Shown here one piece after another: positions 17,201 through 45,641 of a stretch of DNA of 64,000 bases. The translations under genes and the position numbers were made by a program. Within the stretch, counting starts at the first letter, position 1. The number at the start of each line of letters is the position of its first letter. The notes under the pieces are model-generated. The model was not told the DNA's origin. It made no database searches and saw only the letters and a program-made list of their open reading frames with translations. This DNA comes from Sipunculus nudus (lineage: Eukaryota; Annelida; Sipuncula; Golfingiida; Sipunculidae): NCBI GenBank assembly GCA_026874595.1, contig CM049318.1, positions 8,782,741-8,846,740 of the forward strand. Direction: 5' to 3'.

Positions 17201-20200
17201 GGCGCCACTTGTTATCCTTTTCTTGTTTACGTGTCGTTTTATACCCCTATCATTGCCACTTAACAGTACTGTGAGCATTATAGGTCAAAAACTAATGGAC
17301 AGATTTCTTTCAAATTGTGCATATACATAGACGTGGGTTATGGGATGATGTATATTTAAACTGGGGTCATGTCTTTTCCTATTAGAGTGGTATTGACCTT
17401 GAATATTGCCATATATGGTGAAAATCACACAAAATCATAAATATCTCAATAAGGGATGCATGGATTGGTCCAAAAATCAAACTGACTGAACATCTTGGGT
17501 AGATTTGTCTTCGGCGGAAGACAGGTTGCGCCACCTACTGCCCTTTTCTTGTTTTCGCGCCTTTTAATACCCCATCATTGCCACTTGACAGTACTGTGAG
17601 CATTATAAGTCGAAAACTAATGGACAGATTGGGCTGAAATTATGCATGTCCATTGATCTCGGATACCTCTATCTTGTATTCAAGGCTGGTGGCACTATCC
17701 GCAATCGTAATTGTTTGGCGTCCATCCGTACGTTTGTTTTGGGTGAAAATTGCTCATATCTCCAGAGTGGTTTAAGGTATTGGTCTGAAATTTGGCATGA
17801 CCATCCATCTTTGAAAGTTTTCTCAAAAACCAGACAGGTGGCGCCACCTACCTTCCGTTATTTGTAGAATAAATTAAAGCCATTTTCTGAGGAGTCATTT
17901 GCCCTATTGGTCTGAAATTGTGCATATCTATAGACCTTGGACACCTCAATCATGTACTCAAGACCGGTGGTGCCATCTGCAATCTTTTTTGCGTGGTGTC
18001 CATCTGTACGTTTGCTTTAGGTGAAAATGCTCATATCTCCGGAGTGGTTCAGGGTATTGGTCTGAAATTTGGCATGTCCATCCATCTTGAAAAGTTCCTT
18101 CGTAAACCAGACAGGTGGCACCACCTACCTTTCCGTTTCCGTAAAATAATTAAAGCTCTTTTTTCAGGATTGATTTGCCCTATTGGCCTGATATTATGCA
18201 CATATATAGATCTTGGACTCCTCCAACTTGTGCTCAAGAATGGTGGCGCCATCTGCAATCGTTTTGCCGTGCCGTCAATCTGTACATGTGCTTTGGGTGA
18301 AAATTGCTTATATCTCGGGAGTGGTTCAAAGTATTGGTCTTAAATTTGGCATGTCTATCCATCCTGGAAAATTTACCCAAAAAGTACCCATTCACTCCTG
18401 GGAGGCAAGAGTTCACCCTTGCGGTAAACTTGGAAAGGAATTTCCGCGCGGATGCACGGCGGTCAGAACCCACATTCTTACGGTCAAAATCCAGCGCCCT
18501 TTCCATGACGCCAAACACTCTTATTTGACTGGTCGGTTTTAACCAATGGGAATGTTGGTTTACTCAAGAGTGGTCTTTATAAGCAAGTGGTCTTATTAGA
18601 GAGATTCATATACAGGATATATGCATGAGAAATATTTGAAGAAAGGGACTGACGTGAAAATACAAATAAAACAAAATAAATGCACAGATATTTATAAAGG
18701 TGAAACATGCACTAAACTACAAGGTTCATCATTTAGGCGGCAGATGGCAGCAAGTTACGTACGCACTAAACTACAAGGTTCATCATTTAGGCGGCAGATG
18801 GCAGCAAGTTACGTACAACCCCCCCCCCCCCCCCCCCCCCCCGTACACTGACCAATTACGATTTGATCCCGTATGTCATGCTGACGGCGCGACTGAAACT
18901 CATCACCAGGTCAAAGGTGAATCGTGTGGGACTAGATGTGAGTAGGAAAAATGAGTACGAATTCCGGAGCAACCGGAATCGATAAAGACAAACTCATGTG
19001 ACGGACGGTTATTAATGATAGAAACCCTTAACCAGGAACCTACATTTTACAAATATGTGAAAAGAAGTAAAACGTCCCTCTCTCCTCGTCTCCTCCCTTC
19101 TTCTCCCAATATATTTTTCTACTCCCCCCCCCCCCCCCGCCCAATCATGTTTATATGGACTGAATTAACTGTGATGCCACCACTCCCGAGCCAGAATCAA
19201 AAACACATCAGTCATCACTGGGGCTTGGTCGTCTATCAGCTTCTATCGGACATCATCATCATGATCACCTCAACCATTACCATCTGCTTAAGACACTGCG
19301 GGGGGGGGGGGGGGGGGCTGTCTGAGATTCTAACCAACTGGACATGTTCGATGAGCGTATACATCTCCAGTCAGTCAGTGGGATGCCACCATTTCTACCA
19401 ATGTACCTGTATTTAGATAAAGACCCTGATTAATACACAGAAATCTAGGTTAATTCCATATGAGTCATACGTTTACTAGATGCTAACATATCGGGGGGGG
19501 GGGGGGGGGGGGCAGAAATTATATGTCTTCAAAAATATTTTGTGGCTAATATCTATTCTCTTGAAACAATTAAAATATCAAATATTTCAAATGATTTATT
19601 TTTCAATCCATTGTCTTTATGATTCAGACTTATTAAAACATTACAATTACGTAAAAGCAAATCGGCAAGAGAGAGAGAGAGAGACAGACAGAGAGAGAGA
19701 GAGAGAGAAGAGACACCAGACGTATTGATACAGTTGCCTTAGAAGCATTTCAACCGTTATAATCCGACTGGCGTCACATCTCTCGCCAAATTTCAGAAGT
19801 ATTCATTCCCTTTATTTCTGACTGTGTGTTGGTGCAGGGTTAACCGGTTACACGAACCTCCGGCACTTAATTTATTCTCTGTGTCAGGACTCGATGTGTA
19901 TCACTAATGGTCTGATTGGATGAATATGAATTCATTGTTACTTTACATAAGAATCCTATTGTTGGATGCTCAATGAAAGTTACCCAGCAGCATGATAGGT
20001 ACAAGAGTACTACATTTTACTTGTCATACAAGCGACAAACGGTACTTTTGAACCTATAGCCGCGTGTGGACAGCGTTCTGTGTACGTGTGTGCGACTATA
20101 TATGCGTTCTTTCCATGCGTTCAGTGTCTGTCTGTTAAACTGCTTTTCTGTTTGTCTGTCTGTCTGCCTGTCTCTGCCTTTGTCTGTCTGTCTTCTCTGT

Positions 20201-20275: not shown

Positions 20276-20335
<60 letters not shown>

Positions 20336-20593
20336 GTACATGGCTAAAATAACAATGTCTCTTTCTCTTGTGTATGCGTATTCTGTGTATGTAACCTTAC
20401 CGTCCAGTATACACCACTGGCCATCGATCTCTGTGTGTTGGATGTATGAATCCTCTATGGTTGGATCGTAATCCTGCACAAACATTTTCTGGAAAAATTG
20501 AATGGTCAGCGCTGATTTACCGACACCACCGTCCCCTACAACCACCAGTTTGTATGTTGTCAGGTTATCACTGGGGGCGGGGGGTTTGGCCAT
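14162..20593 (-). CDS. MRAS: M-Ras small GTPase, complete, 200 residues in five exons
   Basis: Exons (gene order) 20593-20401, 16790-16637, 15795-15696, 15143-15064 and 14237-14162 join in one frame with GT/AG borders to give 200 residues. Start: [20 protein letters not shown] with a good ATG context (AACCATGG). G1 GDGGVGKS 20-27, switch [10 protein letters not shown] 42-50, switch [10 protein letters not shown] 67-74 (Gln71 in place), NKVD 126-129, ETSAK 154-158. The [16 protein letters not shown] start and the CILD before DTAGQ point to M-Ras rather than H/K/N-Ras or R-Ras. The C terminus is a polybasic run RRRKRRRKR and the prenylation box CTIM. M-Ras cycles between GDP and GTP at the plasma membrane and with SHOC2-PP1 promotes Raf activation. 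No broken motif is seen. Confidence 0.95.
14590..14700. repeat. (TAA/TTA)n microsatellite in M-Ras intron 4
   Basis: About 110 bp of imperfect AAT/TTA trinucleotides. The rest of intron 4 (14238-15063) shows nothing recognisable. Confidence 0.9.
15064..15143 (-). CDS. MRAS: M-Ras exon 4: ETSAK motif
   Basis: 80 nt between TTTGCCTTTCAG and GTACAG. It reads [20 protein letters not shown] and EVVRVI. The phrase [12 protein letters not shown] is strongly M-Ras-like. Confidence 0.95.
15696..15795 (-). CDS. MRAS: M-Ras exon 3: NKxD base-recognition motif
   Basis: 100 nt between TTTTTTTAG and GTAACG. After the split Arg it reads [20 protein letters not shown], then [17 protein letters not shown] binds guanine. 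Confidence 0.94.
15796..16636 (-). other. M-Ras intron 2
   Basis: Intron between exons 2 and 3. It contains a 15-bp match to the vertebrate CTCF core (16400-16414) in a short less AT-rich patch at 16340-16460. No other feature seen. Confidence 0.7.
16637..16790 (-). CDS. MRAS: M-Ras exon 2: switch II to the fourth strand
   Basis: 154 nt between GTGTGTTTCAG and GTCAGT. It reads [20 protein letters not shown], then [20 protein letters not shown] and ending LRVKD, all standard Ras sequence. Confidence 0.95.
17039..18360. repeat. GGTGGCGCCACC-family repeat block in M-Ras intron 1
   Basis: Starts with ATTGTATCCCCAGACAAA, then diverged modules of roughly 280-320 bp, each with a palindromic core (near-copies at about 17199, 17524, 18115 and 18241; exact at 17837-17848) and phrases such as CATTGCCACTTGACAGTACT and AAACTAATGGACAGATT. 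The reverse complement of 33960-34568 is clearly the same family. No coding capacity. Confidence 0.8.
18709..18820. repeat. 56-bp tandem duplication followed by poly-C
   Basis: Two almost identical 56-bp copies starting CACTAAACTACAAGGTTCAT at about 18709 and 18765, directly followed by C24 at 18819-18842. The GGCGGCAGATGGCAGCAAG inside each copy resembles the palindromic family's flank. Confidence 0.9.
19660..19710. repeat. (AG)n microsatellite
   Basis: Imperfect GA dinucleotide run in M-Ras intron 1. Confidence 0.9.
20125..20336. repeat. (CTGT)n / (CT)n / (TA)n compound microsatellite next to M-Ras exon 1
   Basis: Imperfect CTGT runs, then about 45 bp of CT, then TATATATATATA, ending some 65 bp inside intron 1 from the exon 1 donor. 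On the transcribed strand this is a purine-rich stretch just after the 5' splice site. Confidence 0.9.
20401..20593 (-). CDS. MRAS: M-Ras exon 1: start codon, G1 and switch I
   Basis: 193 nt from ATG to the donor GGACG|GTAAGG. It holds the P-loop [11 protein letters not shown] and the effector region [19 protein letters not shown]. The Gly22 position is wild type. Confidence 0.95.
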
Positions 20594-23500
20594 GGTTAGT
20601 CTTTAAATCCAAAACCACCCGTGTATGAACCTCTGCTTTGTAGAAAGGTAGGCAATTTTAGAGTGTTAACGCTCACACAAACAGGCGTAACACATTATCT
20701 GTGAGGAACTTCACACAACAAGCTAAGCTGCTGCAGCTAACAGAGCTCACGACAGCAGTTACGTTTGCTTGCTTTCTTTCTTGTACAGCCCTACCAACGC
20801 ACTGTCCTTGAACTCAAATAATGTATGCAGGAATGTCAGTTCGACTCATCGATTTCTGGTTCAGTATATACAGTTAGAATTTCCTAAACGATTTAAATTA
20901 GCCTGGTGCAATACAAGTAATCCGCTGAGCACACAATTAAACTGGTCACTGATAGTCGTGCCTACCATCTGTCAGTTTACATGGTGCGCATATGATTACG
21001 ACTGCCAGACAAGGGGGATACCCTGGATATATATAGATCAATCTATTAATAACGACCAATGAGGAAGCAGTATTCGGGCACGGGACGTTTTGATTGGCCT
21101 GCGTATGACGTCTATAGGTGCCTGGGCGACGGTAAGCACCTAGCCACCAAAACAACTTTTTAACGCCCGTGGTATATTGACTTGTTACTATATTTAAACG
21201 CTGCTGTCGAGCGCAGCAACTAGGAACAAAAGAGTTTCTATCACAGAAAGCTGCCATCATAATAGTACCTGTTATCAGCATGGGCCATGCTCGTGTTTAA
21301 CAATTATGGCACGACAAGGTTTAATTAATCATGTCGTTGTGGCCAGGACTGGAGTGTGTGGGGGTTGAACGTTAAACATCACTTTTCTTTGCCTGCCTAG
21401 AAGTCATCAAAAGGTGGGCATCTGACGTCTGTTCTAAACTGAACCAGTTCCTGGACGCAATAGTTGCGATTGCCAAGCAATAAGTACCTACGACTTCAAA
21501 AACCGAACACCTATACAATCATAAGTGGAACAAACGTAAATGATAAAACAATTATGTATATATATATTACCGGCATTTTTGTCAGTAGTGTGTGGTTCCA
21601 GTCAGTAAGTACTAGTAAGCCAGGTGTAAGAGACGTGACTTAAAAAATAATTCCGGTAATCGGTTTGATATAATTTTAACTAGATAAGTAATGTAAAGTA
21701 TCTAGGTCTATCCTTCCTATAAGGTGTCGATTAATGAAACGTCACATGCCTGTGACGTCTCTTGACTTTTTAGAACTTGCATGATAACTTAAGTGGTGTT
21801 TGGTCACCATAAAACTGGCCTCACAAGGCTCAGTTATAAAAAAAATGGAGAGACAATTATCCACGGTGAGCAGTCATAGGCCTATCAATTACTACTATTT
21901 AACTATATATACATAAACCATTGTTTGTACATATGTTTCCCAGAAAATCATTTGCATTAGCCTAACGGCTTTCTTTGTAATCCTGGTTAAATAAATATGT
22001 TTAAACAAAACCAAATATATATATCCTGCTTATATAAAATGGCGAGCGCTGCTATTCAAAGCCAATGTGCCATATCTACAAAAAAAAGCCAAACTAAGAT
22101 AAAACGACTTTTTGTAAAAAAAAAAATTACTTCGTAAAGTGTAAGAGTCAAATTGTATTTATTAATCTACTGTATCATTAATTAGATATATGTGCAGTGA
22201 ATTTCACTTTCGGATGACCTTGTAAGATTTACAATATAAATTTGTTTAACTGCAGTATCTTAATATAGAAATTTTGTGAAATGCTGAATCAAGTGACATC
22301 TGTTAGAGATAAATCACTTGATTTTAATAGAAAGCAGTTAAAAATGATAAAACTTGGATAGCATTTGTTAAATTTATAAATTTTCAAATTGTCAGGTTTA
22401 CTACCTGTACCAAAAGATTGCCAAGACCTTATCTCCTATAAAATACACACACACCCACACACACACACACAAATATATACATGTAGAAAATAAAGTGCAA
22501 AAAAAATCTACTAAACAAATAAAGAAAATCCGGCGTTCATTCTATATTCCGAGAGAGGTAATATAGTAGGTATTTTAAATTAAAATTTTAATTAAATATT
22601 TTTTAATTTTGCTTTAATCCATGCCAAAATACATTTTTAATAATTAATCCTAAGGTAAACATCCACCAATTAAACACTGCTCTTTTATGGCTATATATTA
22701 ATCTATTTTGTCTTTTCATTTTAAAAAAATGTGAACTACACGGCATTTCCGATACTTGAAAATAATTAATAAAGTTGAACTACACCGGTTATAAACAACA
22801 AAGCATAAACTGCTGTACCGTGAACGTATGATGAGTAATTCAAGTAAGGAAAGCTGTAATTTTAAAGATTTAAAATGAAGAAAGGATTATTTTCAATCGT
22901 ATGGGTTTTTGTGAAACGTTTGAAAACATAAAAAAAATATATTGCTTAGAATCTGTTACTCTGTTATATGTAAAGAACAAAATTACAATTACCGGTATAT
23001 CTGACTAAGCCAAAGACGAAATTCAAAGGGGGAAAAGAAACAAATTCCTTAATATTCTAATTACACACCCCAATTACAGAAATTTTTTCACAAAATTTCT
23101 TCCATACCTCAAGATTGATTTAAGACAATGGCAAATGAAGACGTTGATACACCGCAAACAGGCTGCTTGTTTTGTTTATAACAACGTGTTTATACTATGT
23201 GGGGCCCGTCAAAATAAAACAAATTCAACAAGAGAACATTGCAGCAAGTTAGTTAAGCCAGAGCTTTGCAAATGGCTTTTGCAACAAGTGACCTTTCTAC
23301 CGCCGCATATATGCAACCTGCCACCTTAGGTAATAAGTTTTTCGCCGATTGTCAACATTGCTGTGTTTACAAACATGTTGTTGATAAAAAGTTCATACAT
23401 TATTCACGGAGGCGTTATAAGAACTTTTCACAACCAAAATTACCCTATGATCATTAACATATACACAGATTAAATCAGAAATCACATCAAATATTTTTCA

Positions 23501-24845
23501 AAAACCTTTAATTTTGCACAATGATAGTAATATGTCAGACTGAAGTCAATAATTTTCTGATCCGAAATAAAATGTCAATGCTGCGCAAAGACATCTCAAT
23601 CCGTCAGTCTAAACATCGTATATTAATCAAAATGGTATAAAACATGGCATTCAGAACGGAGAAAATAAAACCTTAAGAATCAATTCTTACCCAAGACGGA
23701 CCGACCACAGTGACTTTATTTAAGAAATGATTTACAACAATCTGTTCATAAAGGTTATTGTAACACTGTTTCCGGGTCTCAGTTACATGCATTTCTCCGG
23801 GAAAAGTAACAACATTCCTAGGTTAAATGTTTATGATTTGTGCCCTGCAAACGTACAGTCAGTAAAAGGGATAGGGTGTCAGACGAATGACTTATCCCTT
23901 AAAATTAGCATTAACCAGGAGTCAACAATTATCAGCATACATTTCTGATAGTCCACATTATGATCTTTACAATAAAATGTCCACAAAAATGTTAGAATGT
24001 TATATTTGACCTCTCTGGTGCAGATTCTAGGTACATAACAAGTGTACAATTCAATACACAAGACTTTGGTCAGTTGTAAAAAAATGTACATGACGTTTGA
24101 CTTAATAATCTTTTTTTTTCTTGCTGATTTCTTGGTTTGTATAGATTCTAGTTAAGTAATTTGACTGACCGTGGACCCATTTCACCATCACATTTCCATG
24201 ATCATTCCCCCCATTCATTAGAGAGTGCAGACCCAAACAGCAGGTCACTGGCCAGAGGTCTCAGCACTGGTGATAAGGTTTGTGCAAGATATCGGGTTTT
24301 CCAGAATTTTATAAAAAATTAATTTCTAAGGTATTTGAAGGGCAAATTGATGATTAAGGTTGTCTCTTGCCCAAAAGTTTCAATGCCAACTGTTCACCTG
24401 TATGATGGCCCTGAATTTTCTTTATTTTTATTATAATTAATATTAATTTCATACACATCTGTTTCTCTTGTTCTGCAAGGTCACGGAATTTCAAGGTCTA
24501 TTCAAGGAAATTTTCAAAACCTCAATTCAAGCACTTTAAGGCCTTGAAATACATTAACAAGGCCTACAGGCCTAATGCGAACCTGTGCAAAGTTTGGGAG
24601 TATGAATGGAGGTTTATTTTTATCAAATTTAATATTGATCCTTTTAAGTCCTGCATATCTACCTTAGTCATTATGATTTCAGCAAAATGGACATTTCGGA
24701 CCTGCAAGTTTCAGACTAGGACATTTTAAAGCTAGAATATGGGTAGTCGACAAGCGACTATGTGTATCCACAGAAATCGGAGTGGGACGGGTGAAGTGAG
24801 GCATGGATTAAATGGCAAGGGGAATAGAGTGAGGTGTGTTGCATA
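20594..24845. other. Upstream region of M-Ras and intergenic sequence
   Basis: Should contain the M-Ras promoter and any 5' UTR exon. A CRE-like TGACGTCT lies at about 21105 and CCAAT boxes on both strands near 21050-21100; none is proof of a promoter. The rest is AT-rich with (AC)n near 22446. No gene recognised. Confidence 0.5.
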
Positions 24846-25740
24846 TTAGCATGGATGTCTGCAGCGTAAACGTGAATGTATGTGGTGCCACCTGTCATAA
24901 AATCGAGAAAATTGTCCAGGATGTATAAACCTGCAAAATTTCAGGTGGATAAGTCAAACCACTGCTGAGATATGACCGATTTTATCCCAAGGCAGATGAA
25001 CAGATGGACGGTGTTCATAAGTGGTTGCAGGTGGCGCCACCAGTTTTGCTTATGATGAAGAGCTATGTGAGATGTATACACAAGCAAAATTTTGGCCCAA
25101 TCGGTCAAACGGTTCCCAAAATATGAGCTTGGATGTCTGCAGAGTAAACCTGAATGTAGGTGGCGCCACCTGTCATAAAATCGAGAAAGCTGTCCAGGAT
25201 GTATAAACCTGCAAAATTTCAGGTGGATAAGTCAAACCACTGCTGAGATATGAGTGATATTATCCCAAGGCAGAAGAACAGATGGACGCTGTGCAAAAAT
25301 GGTTGCAGGTGGCGCCACCAGTTTTGCCTATGACGAAGAGCTATGTGAGATCTATACACATGCAAAATTTTGGCCCAATCAGTCAAACGGTTCCCGAGAT
25401 ATGAGCTTGGATGTCTGCAGAGTAAACCTGAATGTAGGTGGCGCCACCTGTCATAAAATCGAGAAAGCTGTCCAGGATGTATAAACCTGCAAAATTTCAG
25501 GTGGATAAGTCAAACCACTGCTGAGATATGAGTGATATTATCCCAAGGCAGATGAACAGATGGACGCTGTGCATAAGTGGTTGCAGGTGGGGCCACCATT
25601 TTTAGTGTATGTTATAAAGCTATCAAAAGGCTACATTTGTGCAAAATTTTTAGCCTGATCGGTCAAATGGTTCCCTGAGATATGCAGGTTTATGTGTGGA
25701 AACAGACGCATAAATGGACGCTGGGCAGCAAGGAAAGGTC
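24846..25740. repeat. 278-bp tandem array with two palindromes per unit
   Basis: About three copies with a 278-bp period (GGTTGCAG at 25023, 25301 and 25579). Each full unit has two exact GGTGGCGCCACC palindromes, at 25030, 25159, 25308 and 25437, alternately 129 and 149 bp apart. Between them are CAAAATTTTGGCCCAAT and GTCAAACCACTGCTGAGAT. Two short open frames (25021-25206, 25254-25484) are the same unit read twice and are not called genes. Confidence 0.9.
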
Positions 25741-27408: not shown

Positions 27409-30400
27409 CTGTAACAATAAATGACATGAATCAATTTACATCACACATTCAAATCCTTTTTACAAGTACACCACCAATGCTATTGTGTTCCCTGAGATCT
27501 TAGATGGCTGTGACATAAAGCTGTTTAAGAAAATTGATGCTTTGATAATGATGTGAAAACTTGTACAGTGAAATGTCACCTGCCAAGCACCCAGCTTTCA
27601 CGATCAACCCACTAAGACCACCACTTTTTTGGTCGAGGACTTCAAATTTCACAATGTTTATTTTCAGTAGGTTAGCAACTTAATAGGCTTATATAGAAGC
27701 AGGTACAAAATCAAAAGGTGATAGACTTTTTTTACGTAAAAATTACCAAAGAAAGTCAATTTTAAAATCATAACAGGTTAAAACAGTGTGAAGCAAAGGT
27801 TTTTGTTTTGGGGTGATTCTCTGTGTGTTCACACATGAAACGTATCTGAAAATGGTTTCTTGCATTTTAATGAAATGTGTCATGTATGTAATTGTTGTGA
27901 ATGTGAAATTCAAAAATCCTATTACTGATCCTAATGCAAATAAATCATAGTATGGGTGTGTTTTGGCAGTATTGTTAACATGATTACACACCTTACTACA
28001 AAGTGCAATCAGAACATGTGTCTCTGATATGTGACTACATGAACATGTGTCTCTGATATGTGACTACATGAACACGTGTCTCTGATATGTGACTACATGA
28101 ACATGTGTCTCTGATATGTGACTACATGAACATGTGTCTCTGATATGTGACTACATGAACATGTGTCTCTGATATGTGACTACATGAACATGTGTCTCTG
28201 ATATGTGACTACATGAACATGTGTCTCTGATATGTGACTACATGAACATGTGTCTCTGATATGTGACTACATGAACACGTGTCTCTGATATGTGACTACA
28301 TGAACATGTGTCTCTGATATGTGACTACATGAACATGTGTCTCTGATATATGACTACATGAACATGTGTCTCTGATATGTGACTACATGAACATGTGTCT
28401 CTGATATGTGACTACATGAACATGTGTCTCTGATATGTGACTACATGAACATGTGTCTCTGATATGTGACTACATGAACATGTGTCTCTGATATGTGACT
28501 ACATGAACATGTGTCTCTGATATGTGACTACATGAACACGTGTCTCTGATATGTGACTACATGAACATGTGTCTCTGATATGTGACTACATGAACACGTG
28601 TCTCTGATATGTGACTACATGAACACGTGTCTCTGATATGTGACTACATGAACACGTGTCTCTGATATGTGACTACATGAACATGTGTCTCTGATATGTG
28701 ACTACATGAACATGTGTCTCTGATATGTGACTACATGAACATGTGTCTCTGATATGTGACTACATGAACATGTGTCTCTGATATGTGACTACATGAACAT
28801 GTGTCTCTGATATGTGACTACATGAACATGTGTCTCTGATATGTGACTACATGAACACGTGTCTCTGATATGTGACTACATGAACATGTGTCTCTGATAT
28901 GTGACTACATGAACATGTGTCTCTGATATGTGACTACATGAACATGTGTCTCTGATATGTGACTACATGAACATGTGTCTCTGATATGTGACTACATGAA
29001 CATGTGTCTCTGATATGTGACTACATGAACATGTGTCTCTGATATGTGACTACATGAACACGTGTCTCTGATATGTGACTACATGAACATGTGTCTCTGA
29101 TATGTGACTACATGAACATGTGTCTCTGATATGTGACTACATGAACACTTGTCTCTGATATGTGACTACATGTATTAAACAAATCACAGTCACATGGAAT
29201 ATGGGAGGCATGGAATGTTTGATGATGTGAGAGTTCTCCAAACTTCAGGCATCAGAGATCCCAAAGTATCCTCAGGACACACAAACAGGTGCAACAAAAA
29301 AATTATGAAAGGTGGCACCATCAGTCTTTTGTATCAGATCAAGCTTTCAATGATTTTTTTACATGCAACACTTCGGGCTGATGTGCAGGGTTGGGGTCAA
29401 ATAAGTATTTGTATTTAAATACATAAGTATGTATTTGTATTTGTTTTGTGCGAAATGATAATATTTGTATTTGTATTTGATCTCAACATCTGATGTATCT
29501 GATTGAATACTGTACAAATACATATGTATAAATACATATTCATATCTGCCATAATTTAAAAAAAAAAAAACTGGATATTTCTTGGCACCTTAGGTGCCAT
29601 AGTATCCCCAGATAATTGTCCCCCCCCCCCTCCATAAGATGCATCTAACCTGTAAGTTTGGTGACTGTACCAACAATGTTTTTTTGAGTTATTGCCATAA
29701 TTTCATTTTAACATTATTGCTGCTGTGACCTTGAAAAAATGTATCAAGGTCATCCATCTTCAAATTTGACCTAGCCGTTGATAAGATGCATCAAACTTGT
29801 GGGTTTGGTGACTGCACCTCAAATTCTTACAAAGTTATTCCGTTTACACATAATTTTAGCAAGAAAACAACATAAGGTGGCACCACCTGTTTTCTGCAGA
29901 AAACAATGCTATCAAAGATCTTGTGTCAATATGATTTTGGACCAATCCATGCATCCCTCAGTGAGATATTAAAGTTAACAACATTTCAGCATTATTGCCT
30001 CTGTGACCTTGAAAAATGCATCAAGGTAATCCATATTCGAACTTTGCCTAGCCCTTGGTAAGATGCAGCTAAACTGTAGGTTTGGTGACTGTACCACAAA
30101 TTCTTTTTGAGTTATTGCCCTAATATCATTTTAGCATAATCGCAGCTGTGACCTTGAAACAAGGGACCTATGGGTCACTGTGCTCAGCTGACGTTAACCT
30201 TGAAGGTAAAAATCTAAAATAATATCAAATGGAGATAAAGTGTAAGAGGAAGAGGTAATAAAGGCCATGGTTGGTTTATATGATTGGTTTGTATTGATGA
30301 GCAAGAAATTGTTGCAAAAAATATTTTGTGACCTGACCATGTGTTTCCTAATGTTGAAACTAAAGCATGTGAGCAGTTTGTGAACAAATGATCTGTACTA

Positions 30401-33400: not shown

Positions 33401-36400
33401 GCTAATATTCTAGTTTCCCAGATACTGGCCTAATGTTTGGTCTGTGGGCGCATAATGACCACTTACAGATAAATAAATATGAGGAAAAACAGATGAGTGG
33501 TTTCAATATTAGGCAGTCCTGAAGTGTGAAAATAGGTTTTTAATAAAAAATTGAGGTTTTTCCTTAATTTCTCAAAGGAACAAAGTTGCAAAGACCCAGT
33601 TTTCGGCTTGGTAGGAGATCTTGGGGACATCTAACATTATGCCGAATTTTGGATTCCTAGGTCTTACGGTTTCAAAACGTGCCACATCTACGGACGGACG
33701 GACGGACGACGGACAATGGACCATGACTATAGCTCAGATGACTTATAGTCAGCTGAGCTAAAAATGCATCAAGGTCATCCATGTTCGAACTTGACCTAGC
33801 CGTTGATAAGATGCATCAAACCAGAGGGTTTGGTGACTGTACCTCAAATTCTTACAAAGTTATTGCGTTAACATCATTTTAACAAGAAAACAACATAAAG
33901 TGGCACCAGCTGTCTTCTGCAAAAGACAAAGCTATCCAAGATCTTCGGCCACTTTGATTTTTGGATCATTCTATATATCCCTTACTGAGATATTAATGAT
34001 GTTGTGTGAATTTCACCAAATATGGGAAAAATTAAGGTCAAGGCCACTCTCATAGGAAAGGCCATGACCCCAATTTAAATAAACATCATCCCATAACCAA
34101 TATCTATGTATATGAATAATATAAAAGAAATCTGTCCATTAGTTTTTGACTTATAATGCTCACAGTAGTTTCAAGTGGCAATTTCGGGGGTATTAAAAGG
34201 CACGAAAACAAGTAAAGAATAATAGGTGGTGCCACCAGTTTCTGGAACATGACAACCCTATCCATGATCTTCAATTGCTTGATTTTGGGATCAATCCATG
34301 CTAGATTTCTTGAGATATTTAAGAATTTGTGTGATTTTCCCAAAAATTTGACTTATTCAAGGTCAAGGACACTTTCCTAGTAAAGGTTATGACCTTATTT
34401 TTAATAGGCGTCGTCCTCTCACCCATATCTATACATATACCAAGTTTGGTAAAGATCCATGATATATTTTTTGAGTTATCGCGCCAACAAGATTTATATG
34501 AGTTGGCGGCGGCGGCAGCGGGACCGGCATGAAAACATAGTATCCCTCGACTTTGTCTGGGGATACAATTAACTACTACATAACTTCTGAACAAAACAAA
34601 AGACCGCATCAAGTCAGGTGTTTCACTTCTCCCTGAGACATTATGAAAATTTATGGTGCTGAAAACTTATAAAAATTCTGTATAACCAATACATTTGCGT
34701 ATTTGTAATTTTATTTGTATTTGATGTTCTGTATTTGTATTTGTCTTCAGTCACTCATATTTGTATTTGTGCGGGACCAGCTATTGTATTTATATTTGTA
34801 TTTGTATATGGCACAATGTATTTGACCACCCTGCTGATGTGTCAGATCACTCCTGAGATATGTGCTATATATAGATATATAGATGATGCCCCCAGTTTTG
34901 TAAGAAAACTATTTAAAATGGGTGAACATGCACAGTTTAAGGCTGGTACATCAAACCACTCCTGAAATTTGTATTATTTTCACCTAAAACACATATTCAG
35001 ATGGATACTATACAGAAACAATAGTAGGTGGTGCCAATAATCTTGTGAGATCTCAATAATCTCAAGATCTAAAGTCTATGATCATAACAATTTGTCGGGC
35101 AATACATCAAACCACTACTGAGGTAAGTGTTGGGATGTGTTCTACAAATATATGAATACAGATGGCACCACCACATTTTTGTATGAGATAAAGCTTTCTA
35201 AGATCTTTAATTTATATAGACATGAAAAATTTCAAACTGATATGTCAAACAACTCCTGAGATATATGCCATATTCACCCACAAGAGACAGATGGATGCCG
35301 CAAGAAAATATATTTTATGAAAAAGGGTTATGGTCTATCAATCTTTGTCAGGCGCCAGTTCCTTATAATAATGTCAAGTTCCAGAAAACCCCATCTAGTT
35401 GAACAGAGAAGTTCCCAAGAAACATATGCTGCAACAATGGCTGTGGGTGTGTAAGGTTTGTTTTATATAAAATGGTATTATTTACTTAAAAATCAGAAAT
35501 AAAACCTTTAAAAAGGGGCCCCTGCAGCCAATAAATACCAGTAACTGAAACACACACTGATAACTTACATGATGTGGACAACAGCTCCCCACCCTGACAC
35601 AGCATCACGGTCAACTGCATTCAGCAAAGCTTGAGAGATACACTCAAACAAATCATCTGGTCCCTGCAAAAAATAAAATATATCATATGATCCTGAGAGA
35701 TACACTTTACCAAATCATCTGGTACCTGCACCAAAAAAAATATATCATATGATCTTGAGAGATACACTTTACCTAATCATCTGGTACCTGCACATAAATA
35801 AACTGACATATTATATATTATTTTGAGTGATTATACTAAAAATATGTGGCCTCAGCATACAGATAAACTAACATATCACTTATTTCCTGTGAAAACACAC
35901 TTGAAAAATCATTCTGTGAAAATTTGCTCCTTTTGACAACTGTTTTCTAATTAAATATTTCTTGCTCTCCCCTTACAGTCTATCACAAAAACTGATTTTA
36001 TATTATGTCATGTATTTTGAATGATTATACTAAAAATATGTGGCCTCAGCATACAGACAAATTAACATATCACTTATTTCCTGTGAAAACACACTTGAAA
36101 AATCATTCTGTGAAATTTGCTCCTTTTGAAAACTGTTTTCTAATAAATATTTCTTGCTCTCCACTTACAGTCTATCACAAAAACTGATTTTATATTATGT
36201 CATGCATCTTAACTAAGGCTAAATGTTTTTATCAGAGTATTATGAACTAAAGAATGGACAAATTTGGATAAATGTATAACAGGTAAACACCCAAATTTTA
36301 TAAATTTTTAGAGATCTCATACCATGTCCGGTTCCCATAGCGACTCGCACATGCCGTACATTTGTTCTGTGCAGGTGCCACTGACGACAAAGTCATCTGT

Positions 36401-39400
36401 GATCATGGGACAGCCAATCAGATCAAGGGATGCCACGAAAGGTTGGTTTGTTTTGGGATGTAGACCAGCCACTACTGGCTCAATAAAGTAGGGACCAAAT
36501 CTGCAATATAAAACAAAGAACTTAAATAATAAAAAAAATCATTTAATCCATTTCTTTATTTAGTAGAGCAGATCTGTGGTGAATGAAAAAACAGATCAAT
36601 TAAAAATTATTTACAACTTTTATATATTTTTTTTGTTGGAGGTTACCACATCCATTTTTAATGCTTATTTGATTATGTATATGTACATCTGCAGAGTTCC
36701 ATTCCAGTTTCAGACTATGTGACAGGGCAGTATCACATGCTTCCTCTCATTTTTTATCCTGGGTGCATAATCGTCCATATCGCTGGGTCATACAACCAAG
36801 GAACCCCAGAAAGGTGCACTTGGTTGTGAGTGAAACATGTCAGTGGGGCATAACCTTCCCAATAAGCCTGCAGAAGGCTCACCCTGGGTGGCGGCTGACT
36901 GTGAAAAATTTCTCTGCCTCGGCTGAGATTCGAACTCACGATTTCCTGGCTTTGAGTCCTGTACTCTACCCCAGAGCCAAAGAAGCCGGTTTACTATTTA
37001 CAATTTAGTCAATTTACCAGCCTTACAATGTACACCTTATTTAAAGAAACCTTGTACTTTTTATAAACTAGAGGCCAAGATTCTTGTTTAATGTTTATAA
37101 TTGTAACAGCCATGATTAAATTTAACCAACAAAAGCCCACCTGAAAACGTAATTGGTTTCCTCATCTTTATATAATATTTTCTCATATGATGGTATTACA
37201 GACTTACCAACTATGTTAATCCCACTGACAGAGTGTATCATTAACTTATGTAAATGGTCTGCCAATTTGTAAAGGTTAAGAAATTAATCAAAACACAGTC
37301 ATTTAAACTGTAAACGTGACAGGCCTAATTTCTTGAACCTCTTGTAACAATATGCAGTGTATCATACCTTCATTTAAACTGTAAACATGGCAGGCCTAAT
37401 TTCTTGAACCTTTTATAACAATATGCAGTGTATCATACCTTCATTTAAACTGTAAACGTGGCAGGCCTAATTTCTTGAACCTTTTATAACAATATGCAGT
37501 GTATCATACCTTCATTTAAACTGTAAACATGGCAGGCCTAATTTCTTGAACCTTTTATAACAATATGCAGTGTATCATACCTTCATTTAAACTGTAAACA
37601 CGGCAGGCCTAATTTCTTGAACCTTTTATATCAATATGGAGTGTATCATACCTTCATTTAAACTGTAAACATGGCAGGCCTAATTTCTTGAACCTTTTTT
37701 AACAATATGCAGTGTATCATACCTTCATTTAAACTGTAAACATGGCAGGCCTAATTTCTTGAACCTTTTATAACAATATGCAGTGTATCATACCTTCATT
37801 TAAACTGTAAACATGGCAGGCCTAATTTCTTGAACCTTTAATAACAATATGCAGTGTATCATACCTTCATTTAAACTGTAAACACGGCAGGCCTAATTTC
37901 TTGAACCTTTTATAACAATATGCAGTGTATCATACCTTCATTTAAACTGTAAACACGACAGGCCTAATTTCTTGAACATTTTATAACAATATGCAGTGTA
38001 TCATACCTTCATTTAAACTGTAAACACGGTAGGCCTAATTTCTTGAACCTTTTATAACAATATGCAGTGTATCATACCTTCATTTAAACTGTAAACATGG
38101 CAGGCCTAATTTCTTGAACCTTTTATAACAATATGCAGTGTATCATACCTTCATTTAAACTGTAAACATGGCAGGCCTAATTTCTTGAACCTTTTATAAC
38201 AATATGCAGTGTATCATACCTTCATTTAAACTGTAAACATGGCAGCCCTAATTTCTTGAACCTTTTATAACAATATGCAGTGTATCATACCTTCATTTAA
38301 ACTGTAAACATGGCAGGCCTAATTTCTTGAACCTTTTATAACAATATGGAGTGTATCATACCTTCATTTAAACTGTAAACATGGCAGGCCTAATTTCTTG
38401 AACCTTTTATAACAATATGCAGTGTATCATACCTTCATTTAAACTGTAAACATGGCAGGCCTAATTTCTTGAACCTTTTATAACAATATGCAGTGTATCA
38501 TACCTTCATTTAAACTGTAAACATGGCAGGCCTAATTTCTTGAACCTTTTATAACAATATGCAGTGTATCATACCTTCATTTAAACTGTAAACATGGCAG
38601 GCCTAATTTCTTGAACCTTTTATAACAATATGCAGTGTATCATACCTTCATTTAAACTGTAAACATGGCAGGCCTAATTTCTTGAACCTTTTATAACAAT
38701 ATGCAGTGTATCATACCTTCATTTAAACTGTAAACATGGCAGGCCTAATTTCTTGAACCTTTTATAACAATATGCAGTGTATCATACCTTCTCTCATACA
38801 GTAGATTGGACACCATGCTCATGAAGGTTCGGGGTTTGATTCTTCTGTTTTCTTTCAGCTCATACAAATTCAGTCGGAACTGTAACCTCTGAGACCTGAC
38901 ATACAAAGAAAAATAACTTTCAGACTCATAACCTAAATTTGCTTTTTAGAAGGACAAGTTAAGTAGTGTTATTCATGAAAGGTTTGACGTTTATAACTTT
39001 GTAAATATGTCTGATAATTTATACATCTAATGCAGGATTTCATTCATTGAAGATCTATCAAACTTACCGGTAAAAGTTTGTTCAGGATAAAATATTTTTA
39101 ACCCAATACAAAACTACACTTCTAATCATTTTTATAACAAATTAATGACAATCTGCAGACTAATAAGAGGCGTTGCATTGGTTCACTCTGCTGTGAACCT
39201 TGATAAAGGAAAACAGACTGAAAAGCATAAAGAAAAGTTTAAATTTCATGTAATTAAGTGAAACAAGAAGGTGAAACTTAATGCATCAAAATGATGAGTT
39301 CACGCCCCATACTTACACTGTCTGTACATCTGTGGCAAGACCAGCAAGTCCAATATACAGACGAGGGCCCATCTCAAAGACTTTTTGAAAGTCCATGTTC

Positions 39401-39501
39401 ACAGTCTGTGCCTGGATGCCAAACCTTCGATCAGCTGCTATGGCAACACAGTCCTTTCCCTTCATGGCCATGATGGCCCCACCATTATAGGACATAATAC
39501 T
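27360..39501 (-). CDS. PSMB3: Proteasome subunit beta type-3 (PSMB3), all but the first exon
   Basis: Exons (gene order) 39501-39317, 38895-38788, 36500-36323, 35663-35569 and 27408-27360 join in one frame with GT/AG borders and encode 204 residues from [20 protein letters not shown] to TLKARMD and the TAG stop. Adding one Met from an upstream exon gives 205, the length I know for beta-3. Hallmarks: [92 protein letters not shown]. Beta-3 is a structural, non-proteolytic subunit of the 20S core beta ring. The first exon could not be located: several ATG|GT candidates exist upstream (for example minus strand at 39828 or 48644). If the exon is beyond 45.8 kb, the DIRS element lies in intron 1. 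Confidence 0.94.
28013..29172. repeat. 29-bp satellite, about 40 copies
   Basis: Unit ACATGTGTCTCTGATATGTG plus ACTACATGA, repeated with almost no variation for 1160 bp in the last PSMB3 intron. The main variant changes ACATGTG to ACACGTG in eight units (CACGTG at 28073, 28276, 28537, 28595, 28624, 28653, 28856, 29059); a CACTTG unit is at about 29143 and a GATATATGA unit near 28347. The homogeneity indicates recent expansion or conversion. Confidence 0.98.
29300..29377. repeat. Palindrome-family repeat, 5' half of a copy split by the hAT element
   Basis: AGGTGGCACCATCAGTCTTT and GATCAAGCTTTCAATGA match the family consensus up to CGGGCTGATGTG; the copy resumes after 34841 with TCAGATCACTCCTGAGATAT. 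Confidence 0.7.
30200..32160. other. AT-rich stretch without recognised genes
   Basis: Inside the nested block and the last PSMB3 intron. Mostly AT-rich, with G25 at 31149-31173 and G16 at 31992-32007. No open frame shows a domain. Confidence 0.55.
32165..33190. repeat. 508-bp tandem pair
   Basis: Two diverged direct copies about 508 bp apart (ATTTAAGGTA at 32331 and 32839). Both contain CCTGATTTTTTACAA, GCATTATGTTTG and TATACAATT. The pair leads into the tail with GGACGGACGG and a hairpin. Confidence 0.8.
33730..33760. repeat. Terminal hairpin of a palindrome-family element
   Basis: Arms TAGCTCAG-A-TGACT and AGTCA-G-CTGAGCTA pair over 13 bp with one A-G mismatch and a TAT loop, followed by AAAAATG. 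It lies after GGACGGACGGACGACGG. Equivalent ends are at 58143-58171 (changed in sequence but still paired) and, degraded, at about 51021-51049. Confidence 0.75.
34842..35300. repeat. Palindrome-family repeats
   Basis: Resumes the family copy interrupted by the hAT element, then further modules (GTAGGTGGTGCCAATAATCT at about 35024; GATGGCACCACCACA at about 35161) with ACTCCTGAGATATATGCC. Confidence 0.7.
35569..35663 (-). CDS. PSMB3: PSMB3 exon 5
   Basis: 95 nt between TTTTTTGCAG and [37 protein letters not shown]. Its 5' end with the acceptor is partly duplicated twice in the flanking intron. Confidence 0.95.
35631..35794. repeat. Three 62-bp units duplicating the PSMB3 exon 5 acceptor
   Basis: GAGAGATACACT begins at 35633, 35695 and 35757. 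The first unit is the true start of exon 5 plus its acceptor; the other two are intronic copies that keep a TGCAG|GTACCAGATGAT boundary on the gene strand. Confidence 0.9.
35815..36207. repeat. 194-bp tandem duplication in PSMB3 intron 4
   Basis: Two direct copies about 194 bp apart: GATTATACTAAAAATATGTG at 35829 and 36023, and CTATCACAAAAACTGATTTT near 35980 and 36171. High identity indicates a recent event. Confidence 0.93.
36323..36500 (-). CDS. PSMB3: PSMB3 exon 4
   Basis: 178 nt between ATTGCAG and [65 protein letters not shown]. Confidence 0.95.
36757..36990 (-). mobile_element. tRNA-derived SINE
   Basis: On the minus strand, TGGCTCTGGGGTAGAGTA resembles a pol III A box and GTGAGTTCGAATCTC a B box, correctly spaced. 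CGGCT at the head can pair with AGCCG after the B box, as in an acceptor stem, but the anticodon arm does not fold, so this is not a working tRNA. An unrelated body follows to about 36757. It lies in the intron between PSMB3 exons 3 and 4, in gene orientation. Confidence 0.7.
37301..38791. repeat. 71-bp tandem array, 21 copies, starting at the PSMB3 exon 3 donor
   Basis: Unit starts ATTTAAACTGTAAACATGGC and ends TGTATCATACCTTC. The period is exactly 71 bp from 37301 to 38791. ATCATACCTT occurs at 37361 + 71k for k = 0 to 20; the last, at 38781-38790, is the genuine exon 3 donor. Copies differ by a few substitutions, mostly ATGG/ACGG/CGTGG. Confidence 0.97.
38788..38895 (-). CDS. PSMB3: PSMB3 exon 3
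   Basis: 108 nt between GTATGTCAG and [41 protein letters not shown]. Its donor GAAG|GTATGATAC is the first of 21 identical copies produced by the adjoining 71-bp array. Confidence 0.95.
39317..39501 (-). CDS. PSMB3: PSMB3 exon 2
   Basis: 185 nt between GTTACAG and [26 protein letters not shown], then [40 protein letters not shown]. The acceptor directly before AGT-ATT-ATG fits a Met-only first coding exon. An internal ATG at residue 4 could also start translation. Confidence 0.95.
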
Positions 39502-40649: not shown

Positions 40650-41990
40650 GGAGAGGAAGAAGAAGGCCTGGAAAATTGTAGGACCTCACCCGACGCGATC
40701 GCAGGGCCCATGGAGTGAGGCCCGAAGCCTGGAGCGGAACATCTTTCAGATAGAAGCGTGTGAACGGAGATTGGGATATCCAGTATCCCATCTTGACCAA
40801 CTGATTAGGTGAGATCCCGGAGAAATGGGCCAAGGAAGTCGAAATAGCTCGAATGTCATGGGCCTTGAAGTGAAGTTGGTCTAGTGTGGAAGGAGAAGCT
40901 GATTCATATTCGGCAACGATAGTAGCGTTGAGTCACGCACTAATGGTGAAAGGGCTAATCACCTAATTGGAAGATGTGACTTTTGTAGAAATAAACAACT
41001 TCTTGCGCCCCCCCCCCCCCCCCCCCCCCCCGTAAAGAAGGAGGAGCGTGTAGATAATAAAGCAACGCACGAACCGGGCAAGGGGTATCCCCAGAACGGT
41101 ACGGACCGGTAGGGAGTGCCGGAACGTGCCAAGCAGATGGAGGGTCATCGAAATTGTGATATTTCCTATAAAAGTCCGGAGGAAAATGTAGGGTGGCCGA
41201 CGAAGCGGCGGCCGCAATTTGCGGGAATTTCGAATCAGCCACGAGGGCATGAAGCTCAGAACGGCGACCTGCCGAGGCAAGAGCTAGGAGGAAAACCGAT
41301 GTCCTAGACAAAGGTAGAAGATGGGCCGAAGCTACGGCGCATAAGGGGGTTCCCGGAGGTGACGTAAGACGACGTCCAGGGGCCAGGAAGGCGCAACATA
41401 CTGATGACGAGACGCACGGGCCTGAACCCCCTTGAGAAAGTCCGACACCAACGGGTGATGAAGGACACGATCGTGACCCAGCGGACGGAGCACCGACAGC
41501 AGGGCGGCGCGATAGCCACGCAGAGAGGGATAGGATAAATGTTTATCCTGCAGTAAGAACACGAAAAAATCCAAAACAGCCGCAAGCGACGGATCTAAAG
41601 GGGAGATTCCGCAGGAAGACGCCCACTCCGTGAAGAGACGCCACCGGGAGTCATAGATGCGGTCCGAAGAACGGCAACGGGGAGCCGAGGCAAGGAGAGC
41701 AGCCGGACTTGAAATGCCCTGATCCTTGAGGTGTCCGATGAAAGCACGCATGCGCATAGAGGGCACAACCGAAACGGGCGACGCGTTCGAGGGAACGACG
41801 GGAGCGCGATGCGGAGCGGTAGTATAAGCGGGGGGCGAGAGACAAGCGAGCGCCACAGAGGAAACCATGGAGCCGCAGGTTGAAACGGAAGGATGAGAAG
41901 CAGGGTAGTCTGGTCCGCGCGGGACAAGCGGAGAAGGACACGGCGGAGGAGAGGAGGCGCCTGAAACGCAAAAGAAACCGGTGAGACCAC
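40650..41990 (-). pseudogene. DIRS tyrosine recombinase, frameshifted
   Basis: The N-terminal core-binding part (YDSRWRLFTEWASSCGISPL; YPSLRGYRAALLSVLRPLGH) lies near 41650-41450. A frame change and stop at 41333 follow. Box I FLLALASAGRRSELHALV carries the catalytic Arg (about 41257-41270). C24 at 41008-41031 and TGA codons near 40950 interrupt the frame. Box II AHDIRAISTSLA (HxxR at 40849-40860) and the catalytic Tyr in FYLKD (40741-40755) are preserved. It would cut and rejoin the circular cDNA during integration. The full catalytic set is visible but not in one frame. Confidence 0.75.
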
Positions 41991-42169
41991 CCGGACGGCG
42001 GCGTGTCAGGGAGACGGTCGAGAGGGAACGGAGACGCGTGGGGGAACGAGAACGGGGGGGGACGGAAAATCGAACAGATCGAATTCTGGCCGCCCCAGGC
42101 GAGCTAAAACACTCCGAATAACCGGGAGCGGAAGGAGCGGCGGGGAAGGAAGAGACGCCGGATGCAGAA

Positions 42170-42559
42170 GGGGCTTCCGCTAGGATGTGTGCCACGCCCG
42201 GAAGAGGGGATGCACGAACTGATGCCCGGAGAGAGAGGCATAGATCGAACAAAAGTGAAGTCGCCTGCATGAGCGAGGGAGACCGAGTACTGCCCTGCTT
42301 GTTGATATATGCCACAACCGTGGGAATGTCGGGCCGGACGAGAATGGGACGTCCGAACAAGCGGGGAGACCAGTGGGAGATCGCGCGACGGACGGCACGC
42401 AGGTCGAGGAAATTGAGATGGAGCAGACGTTCCGACGGGGACCATATCCCGTAAGCGCGAAGATCGGCGAGATGGTCCCCCCAACCGAGGAGAGACGCAT
42501 CGGTATATACGGTGCAATCGACATCCCTGGAATAAGGAATGCCGCGCAGGAGACAGGAA
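42170..42559 (-). pseudogene. DIRS RNase H domain
   Basis: In one frame: VDCTVYTDASLLGWGDHLAD, GIWSPSERLLHLNFLDLRAV, then LVRPDIPTVVAYINKQGSTR. These are the RNase H blocks of DIRS and Ngaro elements (TDAS, HxNxLELRAV, DNxTVVAYINKQGG). The usual Glu of LELRAV reads Asp here. Called a pseudogene because it depends on the frameshifted upstream RT. Confidence 0.75.
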
Positions 42560-43350
42560 AGGTCCATCCAGGGACAAAGGGACCGCCAGGTGTGCCGAAA
42601 CGGGAGGATCGTAGGACGAACCAAGGTAACCGGAGAAGGCCGTGACGGCGCAAGATAGACAGAATCGGACGCAGGTACAGGCGGCCGAACGGGATGAAAG
42701 ACGTGGTCCGGTTGAGAGCACCGTGGACAGAAGCCGCAGTGCGCGAGTCTACACGGCGCCTCGTGAGAAAGGAACGAATCAGGCGGCGGAGCGTGAGAGT
42801 AAAATCGCGCGGGAGCGACGCTGTGCCGGACGCCAAAGCGAGGGTGACACCCAGAAATTGGAGGGACTGGGTGGGAGTGAGAAGAGATTTCGCCGCAATG
42901 ACCAGGAAGCCGAGGTTCCGAAGTAAGTTGAGAACCCGGGAGCGATGCGATGCGATGCGGCCGCATGGACAAGCCATCGTCCGGATAAGGGAGCACAGAA
43001 ATGCCCGGTGAACGGAGAGAACTCGGGACCGCGTGAACAAGGATGGTTAATTCCAGGGGGCCACGTGGATCCCGAACGGATGGACCCGGAACGGAAACGT
43101 GAAATTAGGCATCCGTAAGGTCTATATTTGAATACCCAATCCATCCGCCGAACAATGCGGAGTACAGCATGCATAATGAACATCCGAAACGGGGGTGGAC
43201 GGATGAACGAATTGAGGCGCTTCAGGTCCATGTTCGGGCGCCAACGGGCGTGCGGTTCGGGAACAAGAAAAGGCGAGAGGGAAAACCCCACGGTGGATGG
43301 GGAAACCTCGTTATTGCCCGATTGTCTAACATAGATTGAAGGGCCTCCGC
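42560..43350 (-). pseudogene. DIRS reverse transcriptase, broken
   Basis: Conserved blocks lie in three frames: RPNMDLKRLNSFIRPPPFRM then MDWVFKY; NIDLTDA followed by a stop where Tyr is expected, then FHV; VLPYPDD (the YxDD motif, at about 42987-42976); and LLRNLGFLVIAAKSLLTPTQ with SLQFLGV. The frame changes and the TAA in the catalytic Asp block show it cannot make an active enzyme. Confidence 0.75.
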
Positions 43351-43399
43351 CAAGCGAGGCGTTTGGCCGGATCGGACGGAGGCGGAGAGTGCTAAACGC

Positions 43400-45253
43400 A
43401 AGACAGAACTTGAACTGTAGGGCGCTGAGAATTAACCGCTGGGAGGTAAAACCCGCCCATGCGGGAAAACGGTCACTGAGCCGAGCGCCAACGGGAGCTA
43501 GAGAGTCATTTCTCGGTGGAACCTCGTTGGGAGGAGCGACCACGAAAGGCGGAGAACGGCTGGAACGTCCTGAAGGACGTGACGAGGTAGCAGATGCGCG
43601 ACGCGGCTGAGCGGAAGCTGCAACCGGAGGCTGAAGGCGGGGAACACGGAAGGAAGGCCGAGGCGCAAGGGAGGTCGAGCGGAGGCGGGCCTGACGATCC
43701 GAGCGCGCCAAGGCGCGGTCAAAGAGAGGCCGTAACTGGCCGCCAAACAGCAGGGAACCGGGAAAGGCGGAGAATAAAGCTCGGTTAACTCCGTCGGAGA
43801 AGCCGCGGCCGTAAGTGCATAAATGACTGAATGCAAGCCGGGCGGCGTAACAAGATGCAATTAACAACCGGGCGCCAACGACCTGAATGGAACACAACGC
43901 CAGAATGGGCAGAAGCCTGCCATATGTCGGGGAGAGTGAGCGTGTCCAGAAACGGCGAGCAAGCAAGGGACAGCCTGCAAGTCGTAAACCATATCGGCCG
44001 CTTGCCGGCCGAGCCCCTCCAGATCCGACAGGTGACGATCGGAAAACTGGACAGAGGATGGAATTAAAGACTGACCATCCGCAAACGGCTGTGCCAGGCC
44101 GGACACGAGGCGCAGCGGAGCAGACTGAACATCCGGGAGCTCAGGAGAAGGGAGCAAGCGAACGAACAGGCAGCCCGGGAGCCCGGTACCCAAGGGAACT
44201 CCCGAGGGTACCAGGGGACCAAGGTGTATCCGAACCCGGCGGAAACTGGCCCCAGTAGAGTGAGACCCCGAGACCACCGCGGGGCGCCCACGGAAGAGAT
44301 CCCCTGTGCGGTCAGTAATACCAGACACACGGCGGGCCCGGCGGAGGGCGAATGAAGGGGCCAGGATTCAAAGAAGAACTGGCCGCTGACGCCGAGGAAG
44401 TCCGAGGTTGTACCTACAGAACTTCGGACCACTAGGGTTAGCCTCCTGTGTGGAGGTAGCCTCGAGGTCCATAAGCGCAGATGTGCGCACACGCCAAGCC
44501 TGGCGGCGCAGCGCGATCGCAGACCACTGGTCTGGGGCCAGGGCAGGATCGGCTGACTGAGCAGATTTGCGCGGACGCCAAGCCTGGCGGCGCAGCCCGA
44601 TCGCCGACCACTGGTCTGATGCCAGGGCGGGATCGGCTGACTGAGCAGTCGGGGACCCTGGAGAACCCCGTGTAGGGGGAGCCAGAGAGACCCGCTGAGC
44701 CGGAGCCACGGGAGGCGGGAAACCGGAAGCCGGGGAACGAGCAGCAGCAGGAACCATCCGGGAAGGCACAGAAACCGGAGCCGCAGGCCGCACAGCAGAT
44801 GGTAACTGAAAAAAAGAGCCGGCTGGCCGTTAAGGAACGACGGCAGACGGAGGAACCGGAGGCGAGGCCGGCAGCCCCGAATGGAGGCAGTAGGGACCGA
44901 CGCACGTACCTGCACACCAGGAAGGTCCCGGCGATCCAGCGGGACGGCTCCAGCCGGCCCCGGGGATAAGGAAGGAATCCGGCGAGGAGAACGGCTGGGG
45001 AGAAAGTACCGGGGCACCGGCGAGGGCGCCGGGCGGACAGAATCGGGTCTAGATGAATCGTCGAGATCCGACATAAGTGATTAACAAACCGGGGACAATA
45101 ATGTAATATGGAATAGGCAGATGTGCTGGCAGAACGGGAGGCCGCGGGAACGGGGAAAGAATTCCGGTTCCGTGAATGAGAATGCAACGATATAACTGAC
45201 GATACCACTGGAGAGGTGACAGGACAGGCGGGAACGGACGGTGAACGCAGCAC
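43400..45253 (-). pseudogene. DIRS gag-like region, frameshifted
   Basis: Open stretches in several frames, including one starting MSDLDDSSRPDSVRPAPSPV at 45074, one with DRHLSDLEGLGRQAADMVYD near 44020, and one with FGGQLRPLFDRALARSDRQA near 43740. Pro/Arg/Ser-rich composition and position fit a DIRS gag, a poorly conserved family. An 87-bp segment is duplicated (about 44475-44650). Boundaries are approximate. Confidence 0.55.
44475..44650 (-). repeat. 87-bp direct duplication in the DIRS gag region
   Basis: CGCCAAGCCTGGCGGCGCAG and GGATCGGCTGACTGAGCAG occur twice about 87 bp apart, with a few substitutions. Confidence 0.9.
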
Positions 45254-45641
45254 GGCCGTGGTGCGGTCAACCAGGGTAGGCCCCCCCCCACCCCCTCGGA
45301 GACAACCACGGGGTCAGACAATGGAATACAGGAGAATGAGCCCGGGGAATGAGCCCAATCCGGGAAAGGGCCCACTGGTCAGACGTCTAAGTCTGGCAGT
45401 GAAAACAAGGATCAGCCGGAACACGGCAGGAGTCAATGTTGGAGCGGCAACGAAAACAAGGGGGGTGGGAGTCCCAACCGGGATTAAGAACCACAAGAGC
45501 CACAATAAGTGGGGTTCTCCATGGCGGGCAAGGGAAAAAGAAGACAACTTACAGTTCAGTTGGCAAACTCATTAGTACAAACCCAACAGTGGACGAATCC
45601 TGCAGAGCGGGATCACACGTCCATCATGGCGAACGCCAGAA

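Follow-up and report, generated by a model that had tools for sequence, protein, structure and literature searches.

A 21-unit tandem array across the exon 3 splice donor of PSMB3 in Sipunculus nudus, most probably a neutral minisatellite of an exon-intron junction

How is a gene spliced when one of its donors is followed by twenty copies of itself? This question is raised by a 64,000-nucleotide stretch of Sipunculus nudus contig CM049318.1 (hereafter the window), for which a sequence-only reading had proposed that a 71-bp array in PSMB3 copies the exon 3 donor 21 times, that each unit also contains an 11-nt pseudo-exon with both splice signals, that such arrays are unusual, and that the array is either tolerated through exon definition or used in recursive or alternative splicing. 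In this study, we analyzed the array, the gene that carries it and the explanations that might account for it.

Exons 2-6 of PSMB3 were located on the minus strand with pieces of human PSMB3 (Table 1), and the peptide of exons 2 and 3 matched proteasome subunit beta type-3 in PDB (E = 1.1e-28). Joined via the first donor of the array (donor 1), exons 2-6 formed a single open frame of 615 nt, or 204 residues plus stop, for which the start codon was assumed and exon 1 lies outside the map. Through the donor at 38787, exon 3 (38895-38788) reads on in frame into exon 4, beginning at 36500. Elsewhere, the window holds KH-domain exons at 2688-4815 (plus strand), which resemble an IGF2BP-like gene, and Ras-family exons at 16561-16902 and 20324-20602 (minus strand), the second best matching M-Ras chains in PDB. 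Long overlapping open frames of 590, 453, 338 and 291 codons lie at 41335-45313 (minus strand); we take their text to recall a DIRS-type retroelement, and the two of these frames given to Pfam had no match there.

Table 1. Features of PSMB3 and its junction arrays, in positions of the window
Feature	Position	Strand	Basis
PSMB3 exon 2, 185 nt	39317..39501	-	human PSMB3 matches, joined frame
PSMB3 exon 3, 108 nt	38788..38895	-	human PSMB3 matches, PDB match, joined frame
Junction array, 21 units of 71 bp plus 2 bases	37299..38791	-	TRF, in-register alignment
PSMB3 intron 3, 2287 bp, of which 1489 bp are array	36501..38787	-	joined exons
PSMB3 exon 4, 178 nt	36323..36500	-	human PSMB3 matches, joined frame
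Junction array, 62-bp unit, 2.7 copies, 88% matches	35632..35802	-	TRF and sequence
PSMB3 exon 5, 95 nt	35569..35663	-	human PSMB3 matches, joined frame
PSMB3 exon 6, 49 nt to stop codon	27360..27408	-	human PSMB3 matches, joined frame

TRF reported a single array at 37299-38791, with a period of 71, 21.0 copies, 98% matches and 0% indels. The four final nucleotides of exon 3, followed by the genuine donor, open its first unit, and the copies match the real exon 3 junction from position -4 (GAAG) onward; beyond -4 the sequences part, exon 3 reading GAGAGAAG and the array copies AAATGAAG. GAAG/GTATGATACAC (the slash marks the splice point) was present in all 21 units, and GAAGGTATGATACAC occurred 21 times on the minus strand and not once on the plus strand of the whole window, with a spacing of 71 in 20 of 20 cases. 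All 21 donors have the sequence from -4 to +11 in common, and units 1-6 are also alike further downstream. Counting in the window thus bore out the proposal that 21 donor copies stand at exact 71-bp spacing on the minus strand, and the array does begin on the PSMB3 exon 3 donor, continue with 20 repeats and join exon 4 in frame through its first donor. The statement that every unit contains an 11-nt pseudo-exon with both splice signals has to be narrowed to 20 units (TTTACAGTTTAAATGAAGGTATGA was counted 20 times): the last one, unit 21, ends in TTTACAGTTTAAATGA followed by CTG and is without a donor. When the exon 3 junction was compared with 1 kb of flanking intron, the score was 68, and the best of 200 mononucleotide shuffles gave 30 (0 of 200 reached the observed value). 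A search of the window with the doubled 71-bp unit found, as the best outside match among those listed, just 24 bp (E = 0.08), which argues against a copy of a dispersed element; a tRNA-derived origin was also rejected, as ARAGORN found zero tRNAs in the window. GA stands at each end of the array, which is compatible with slippage or microhomology, yet short enough for chance.

The strength of the copied signals was assessed with a position weight matrix (PWM) and with pairing to the U1 end. The donor shared by exon 3 and the array scored 3.15 by PWM (exon 2, 1.89; exon 4, 1.15; exon 5, 4.38) and -5.7 kcal/mol by U1 pairing (exon 2, -10.2; exon 4, -4.2; exon 5, -5.5). Outside the array, donor-like sites scoring at least as high by PWM as the real exon 3 donor occurred on the minus strand at 0.93 per kb, and the 798 bp of intron 3 beyond the array held three more sites scoring level with it; thus, there is nothing exceptional about strong decoys here. 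We also considered that RNA structure might mask the copies, and rejected it: the segment 38555-38830 had a z of +1.19, and 176 of 200 shuffles folded at least as well. As no unusual folding was predicted for RNA from the first units, structure does not hide the donor copies.

A second junction array was found at the exon 5 acceptor of the same gene. Here the last 30 nt of intron 4, together with 32 nt from the start of exon 5, make up a unit that stands three times, each time with a GCAG acceptor (35791, 35729 and 35667), the lowest copy being the genuine junction; in the comparison with 1 kb of its own intron, 0 of 200 shuffles reached the observed score. Where exon 5 has GATTTGTTTGAG, the two upstream copies have GATTAGGTAAAG and GATTTGGTAAAG, and both have gained GTAAAG after 15 nt, which would delimit a possible 15-nt in-frame piece, read as VPDD-stop (with an in-frame TAG) in one copy and as VPDDL in the other. 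This GTAAAG donor scores -0.72 by PWM but pairs with U1 at -7.2 kcal/mol. Such an anatomy could be a starting point for new introns or microexons. On its upstream side, this array is adjoined by 2.1 copies of a 194-bp unit in intron 4 (35808-36204).

Are junctions, then, preferred sites for arrays? Two of the nine mapped PSMB3 junctions (the exon 3 donor and the exon 5 acceptor) were duplicated, whereas for the remaining seven, compared with 1 kb of their own intron, 92 to 190 of 200 shuffles reached the score; in this nine-junction comparison, two exon 2 positions were 4 nt off, inside the 30-nt margins. Under uniform placement, finding at least two of the five in-gene TRF arrays (period of at least 10) seeded on junctions has a P of 0.015, a post hoc value obtained with two exon 2 boundaries set 4 nt too high. 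Self-comparison of the window revealed many further local repeats, and counting these would weaken this P, on which our verdict on the array was not rested. Off the junctions, a 29-bp unit (28012-29172, 98% matches) is repeated 40 times in intron 5, roughly 600 bp away from exon 6. Two arrays, at 17628-18383 and 24843-25603, share GGTGGCGCCA-like motifs and have nearly equal periods (277 and 278 bp); spacings near 278 bp were also seen in other local repeats of the window.

What would follow if donors other than the first were used was examined in the joined frame. With donors 2, 3, 4, 5 and 21 (5 of the 20 later donors), the predicted protein stopped after 112 residues, and the stop was met inside unit 1 of the array, so the same outcome is expected for the donors in between. 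Among the donors tried, only donor 1 kept the PSMB3 frame open to its natural stop. These results bear on recursive or stepwise splicing, in which each unit would leave as a 60-nt intron and an 11-nt exon, or via AAG/GTATGA. The arrangement itself, a 60-nt GT...AG stretch plus an 11-nt piece repeated in 20 units, speaks for such a process, and yet one retained pseudo-exon ends the protein after 111 residues and two to six end it after 103. The unit acceptor may also count against it, being poor in T (6 of 16 tract positions, versus 9-12 in the five real PSMB3 acceptors) and without YTNAY at -15 to -50, although the real acceptors partly share such traits: YTNAY is likewise absent from two of the five, and the 10 of 16 pyrimidines of the unit acceptor fall within their range of 9-13. 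AAG/GTATGA is preceded by 9 of 16 pyrimidines, equal to the count of the weakest real acceptor. Zero-length recursive removal would leave no trace in the mRNA, and the truncation evidence says nothing against removal of that form. Overall, recursive splicing seems extremely unlikely, and the suggestion that the array serves recursive or alternative splicing found no positive support, with the tested later donors and pseudo-exons both giving truncated protein.

The distribution of substitutions bears on two further explanations. In register, the array contained 18 substituted cells and zero indels, with a mean identity to the consensus of 98.8%; 11 of the 21 units (1-6, 9, 10, 15, 18 and 20) matched the consensus exactly, and 12 distinct substitutions were spread over the other 10. 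The exon-side units 1-6 were identical and the most diverged unit was the intron-distal one (unit 21, 4 substitutions), the substitutions being skewed to the intron side of the array (permutation P = 0.013; Spearman p = 0.027, or 0.089 with unit 21 left out). An assembly artefact, by which the array or its copy number would be wrong, might be suspected from the identity of so many units, but the distinct substitutions and their patterning along the array argue against it, and miscounted copies would still leave the junction duplicated; we regard it as very unlikely. The scattered substitutions speak for real copies without fixing the copy number. Within the unit, a circular block of 31 bp, spanning TTTACAG to GTATGATACACTG, was free of substitutions, with a chance P of 0.019 (12 events), 0.032 (11 events) or 0.083 (9 events, the cluster at 52-56 being reduced), which is a weak hint of constraint on the splice-signal block. 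This block is one reason to consider the array as a splicing device, whose many U1 sites would tune PSMB3 output through repeat number, either by stronger recognition of exon 3 or by sending some of the transcripts into forms that are degraded. The copied donors equal the real one in strength, the early stop after every later donor tested is like that of a poison isoform, and recognition of the 3' splice site of an exon is reported to be aided by a 5' splice site downstream of it (PMC8724738). However, the P of the block (0.02-0.08) rests on 12 events, and the rest is accounted for by a neutral array at a junction, so that a splicing device appears unlikely. If anything slightly less likely is the more specific idea of a splicing dial, in which twenty donors equal to the real one would vie for U1 snRNP, and exon 3 definition or the share of decayed PSMB3 transcripts would depend on how many there are; were it true, the clean splice-signal block would reflect selection, and a proteasome subunit would be tuned by a heritable repeat number.

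The array is, with high probability, a neutral intronic minisatellite of the type called 'mirage', its first donor being picked by exon definition. A tandem duplication would have taken in 71 bp that begin at the end of exon 3 and run on into the intron, leaving the gene intact with the first copy attached to exon 3; since this copy is still joined to the exon, the duplication is expected to be neutral while donor 1 is used. Growth to 21 units may then have occurred through slippage or unequal exchange. Exon definition is an established idea and would favor the 108-nt form of exon 3 that donor 1 gives, compared with at least 179 nt with any later donor. Donor 1 would be used because exon definition pairs the nearest donor with the acceptor of exon 3 and with signals in the exon, and the other 20 donors would be spliced out as part of the intron or, if used, would yield no more than rare transcripts cleared by nonsense-mediated decay. 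We infer that tolerance through exon definition, which the sequence-only reading had put forward, is the preferred explanation. The near-identical units without indels and the second junction array in the same gene support a neutral minisatellite; counting against it, the copied donor is equal to the real one and exceeds the donors of exons 2 and 4 by PWM. If donor 1 alone is used, the locus would be a natural test that position and exon context, and not donor sequence, choose the splice site, whereas use of later donors would let repeat number govern how much of an essential proteasome subunit is produced.

Arrays of this kind have been described in amphioxus, where 'mirages' are minisatellites that duplicate 5' or 3' exon-intron junctions in Adh, troponin C, globin and PGBD5 genes, with units of 10-72 bp in Adh3 and 150-160 bp in globin, inner units homogenised and edges diverged (PMC3087553, PMC3902484). 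Thus, the view that arrays seeded on a splice site are unusual holds in part, given these junction arrays and the second one in PSMB3 itself; a literature search with PSMB3 and repeat terms returned, among the matches listed, no mention of PSMB3. For the globin genes BflGb6 and BflGb9, Adh3 data and the authors' own RT-PCR suggest that splicing is undisturbed, haplotypes differ in mirage length, and the authors propose that new introns may arise from mirages (PMC3087553). In PGBD5, repeats of 60 and 108 bp abut splice sites, the number of copies varying between assemblies (2-7 and 3-6), and one predicted exon built from repeats was discounted by the authors for want of transcript proof (PMC3902484).

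A tandem duplication across a junction also gave rise to a new intron in potato RdRp (PMC4974935). The exon 5 array is similar to that case in that the 3' end of an intron and the 5' part of an exon were duplicated, with a GT-bearing exonic piece upstream (PMC4974935), but one upstream copy has an in-frame TAG, and nothing points to splicing of a new intron there. With one donor and one acceptor array, PSMB3 carries two of the structures from which new introns have been proposed to originate (PMC3087553). Variable internal tandem repeats in human segmental duplications indicate that minisatellites at exon boundaries can alter gene structure; those repeats are of exonic origin with altered transcripts, whereas the extra PSMB3 units are predicted to be intron (PMC2812944).

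Compared with the amphioxus mirages, the PSMB3 arrays likewise consist of tandem units across an exon-intron junction with repeated splice signals, and PSMB3, like the mirage hosts, has an open frame with the true junction (exons 2-6, start codon assumed). The amphioxus arrays are described as diverged at both edges, whereas the PSMB3 array is diverged at the intron side and its exon-side first unit is not; the mirage cases cited are all cephalochordate, and the PSMB3 array is known here from one genomic sequence. The array fits the mirage description in the tested features, except for its non-diverged exon-side edge. As a junction minisatellite it is already known in kind, and it is striking in copy number, having 21 units where 2 to 7 are given for globin and PGBD5.
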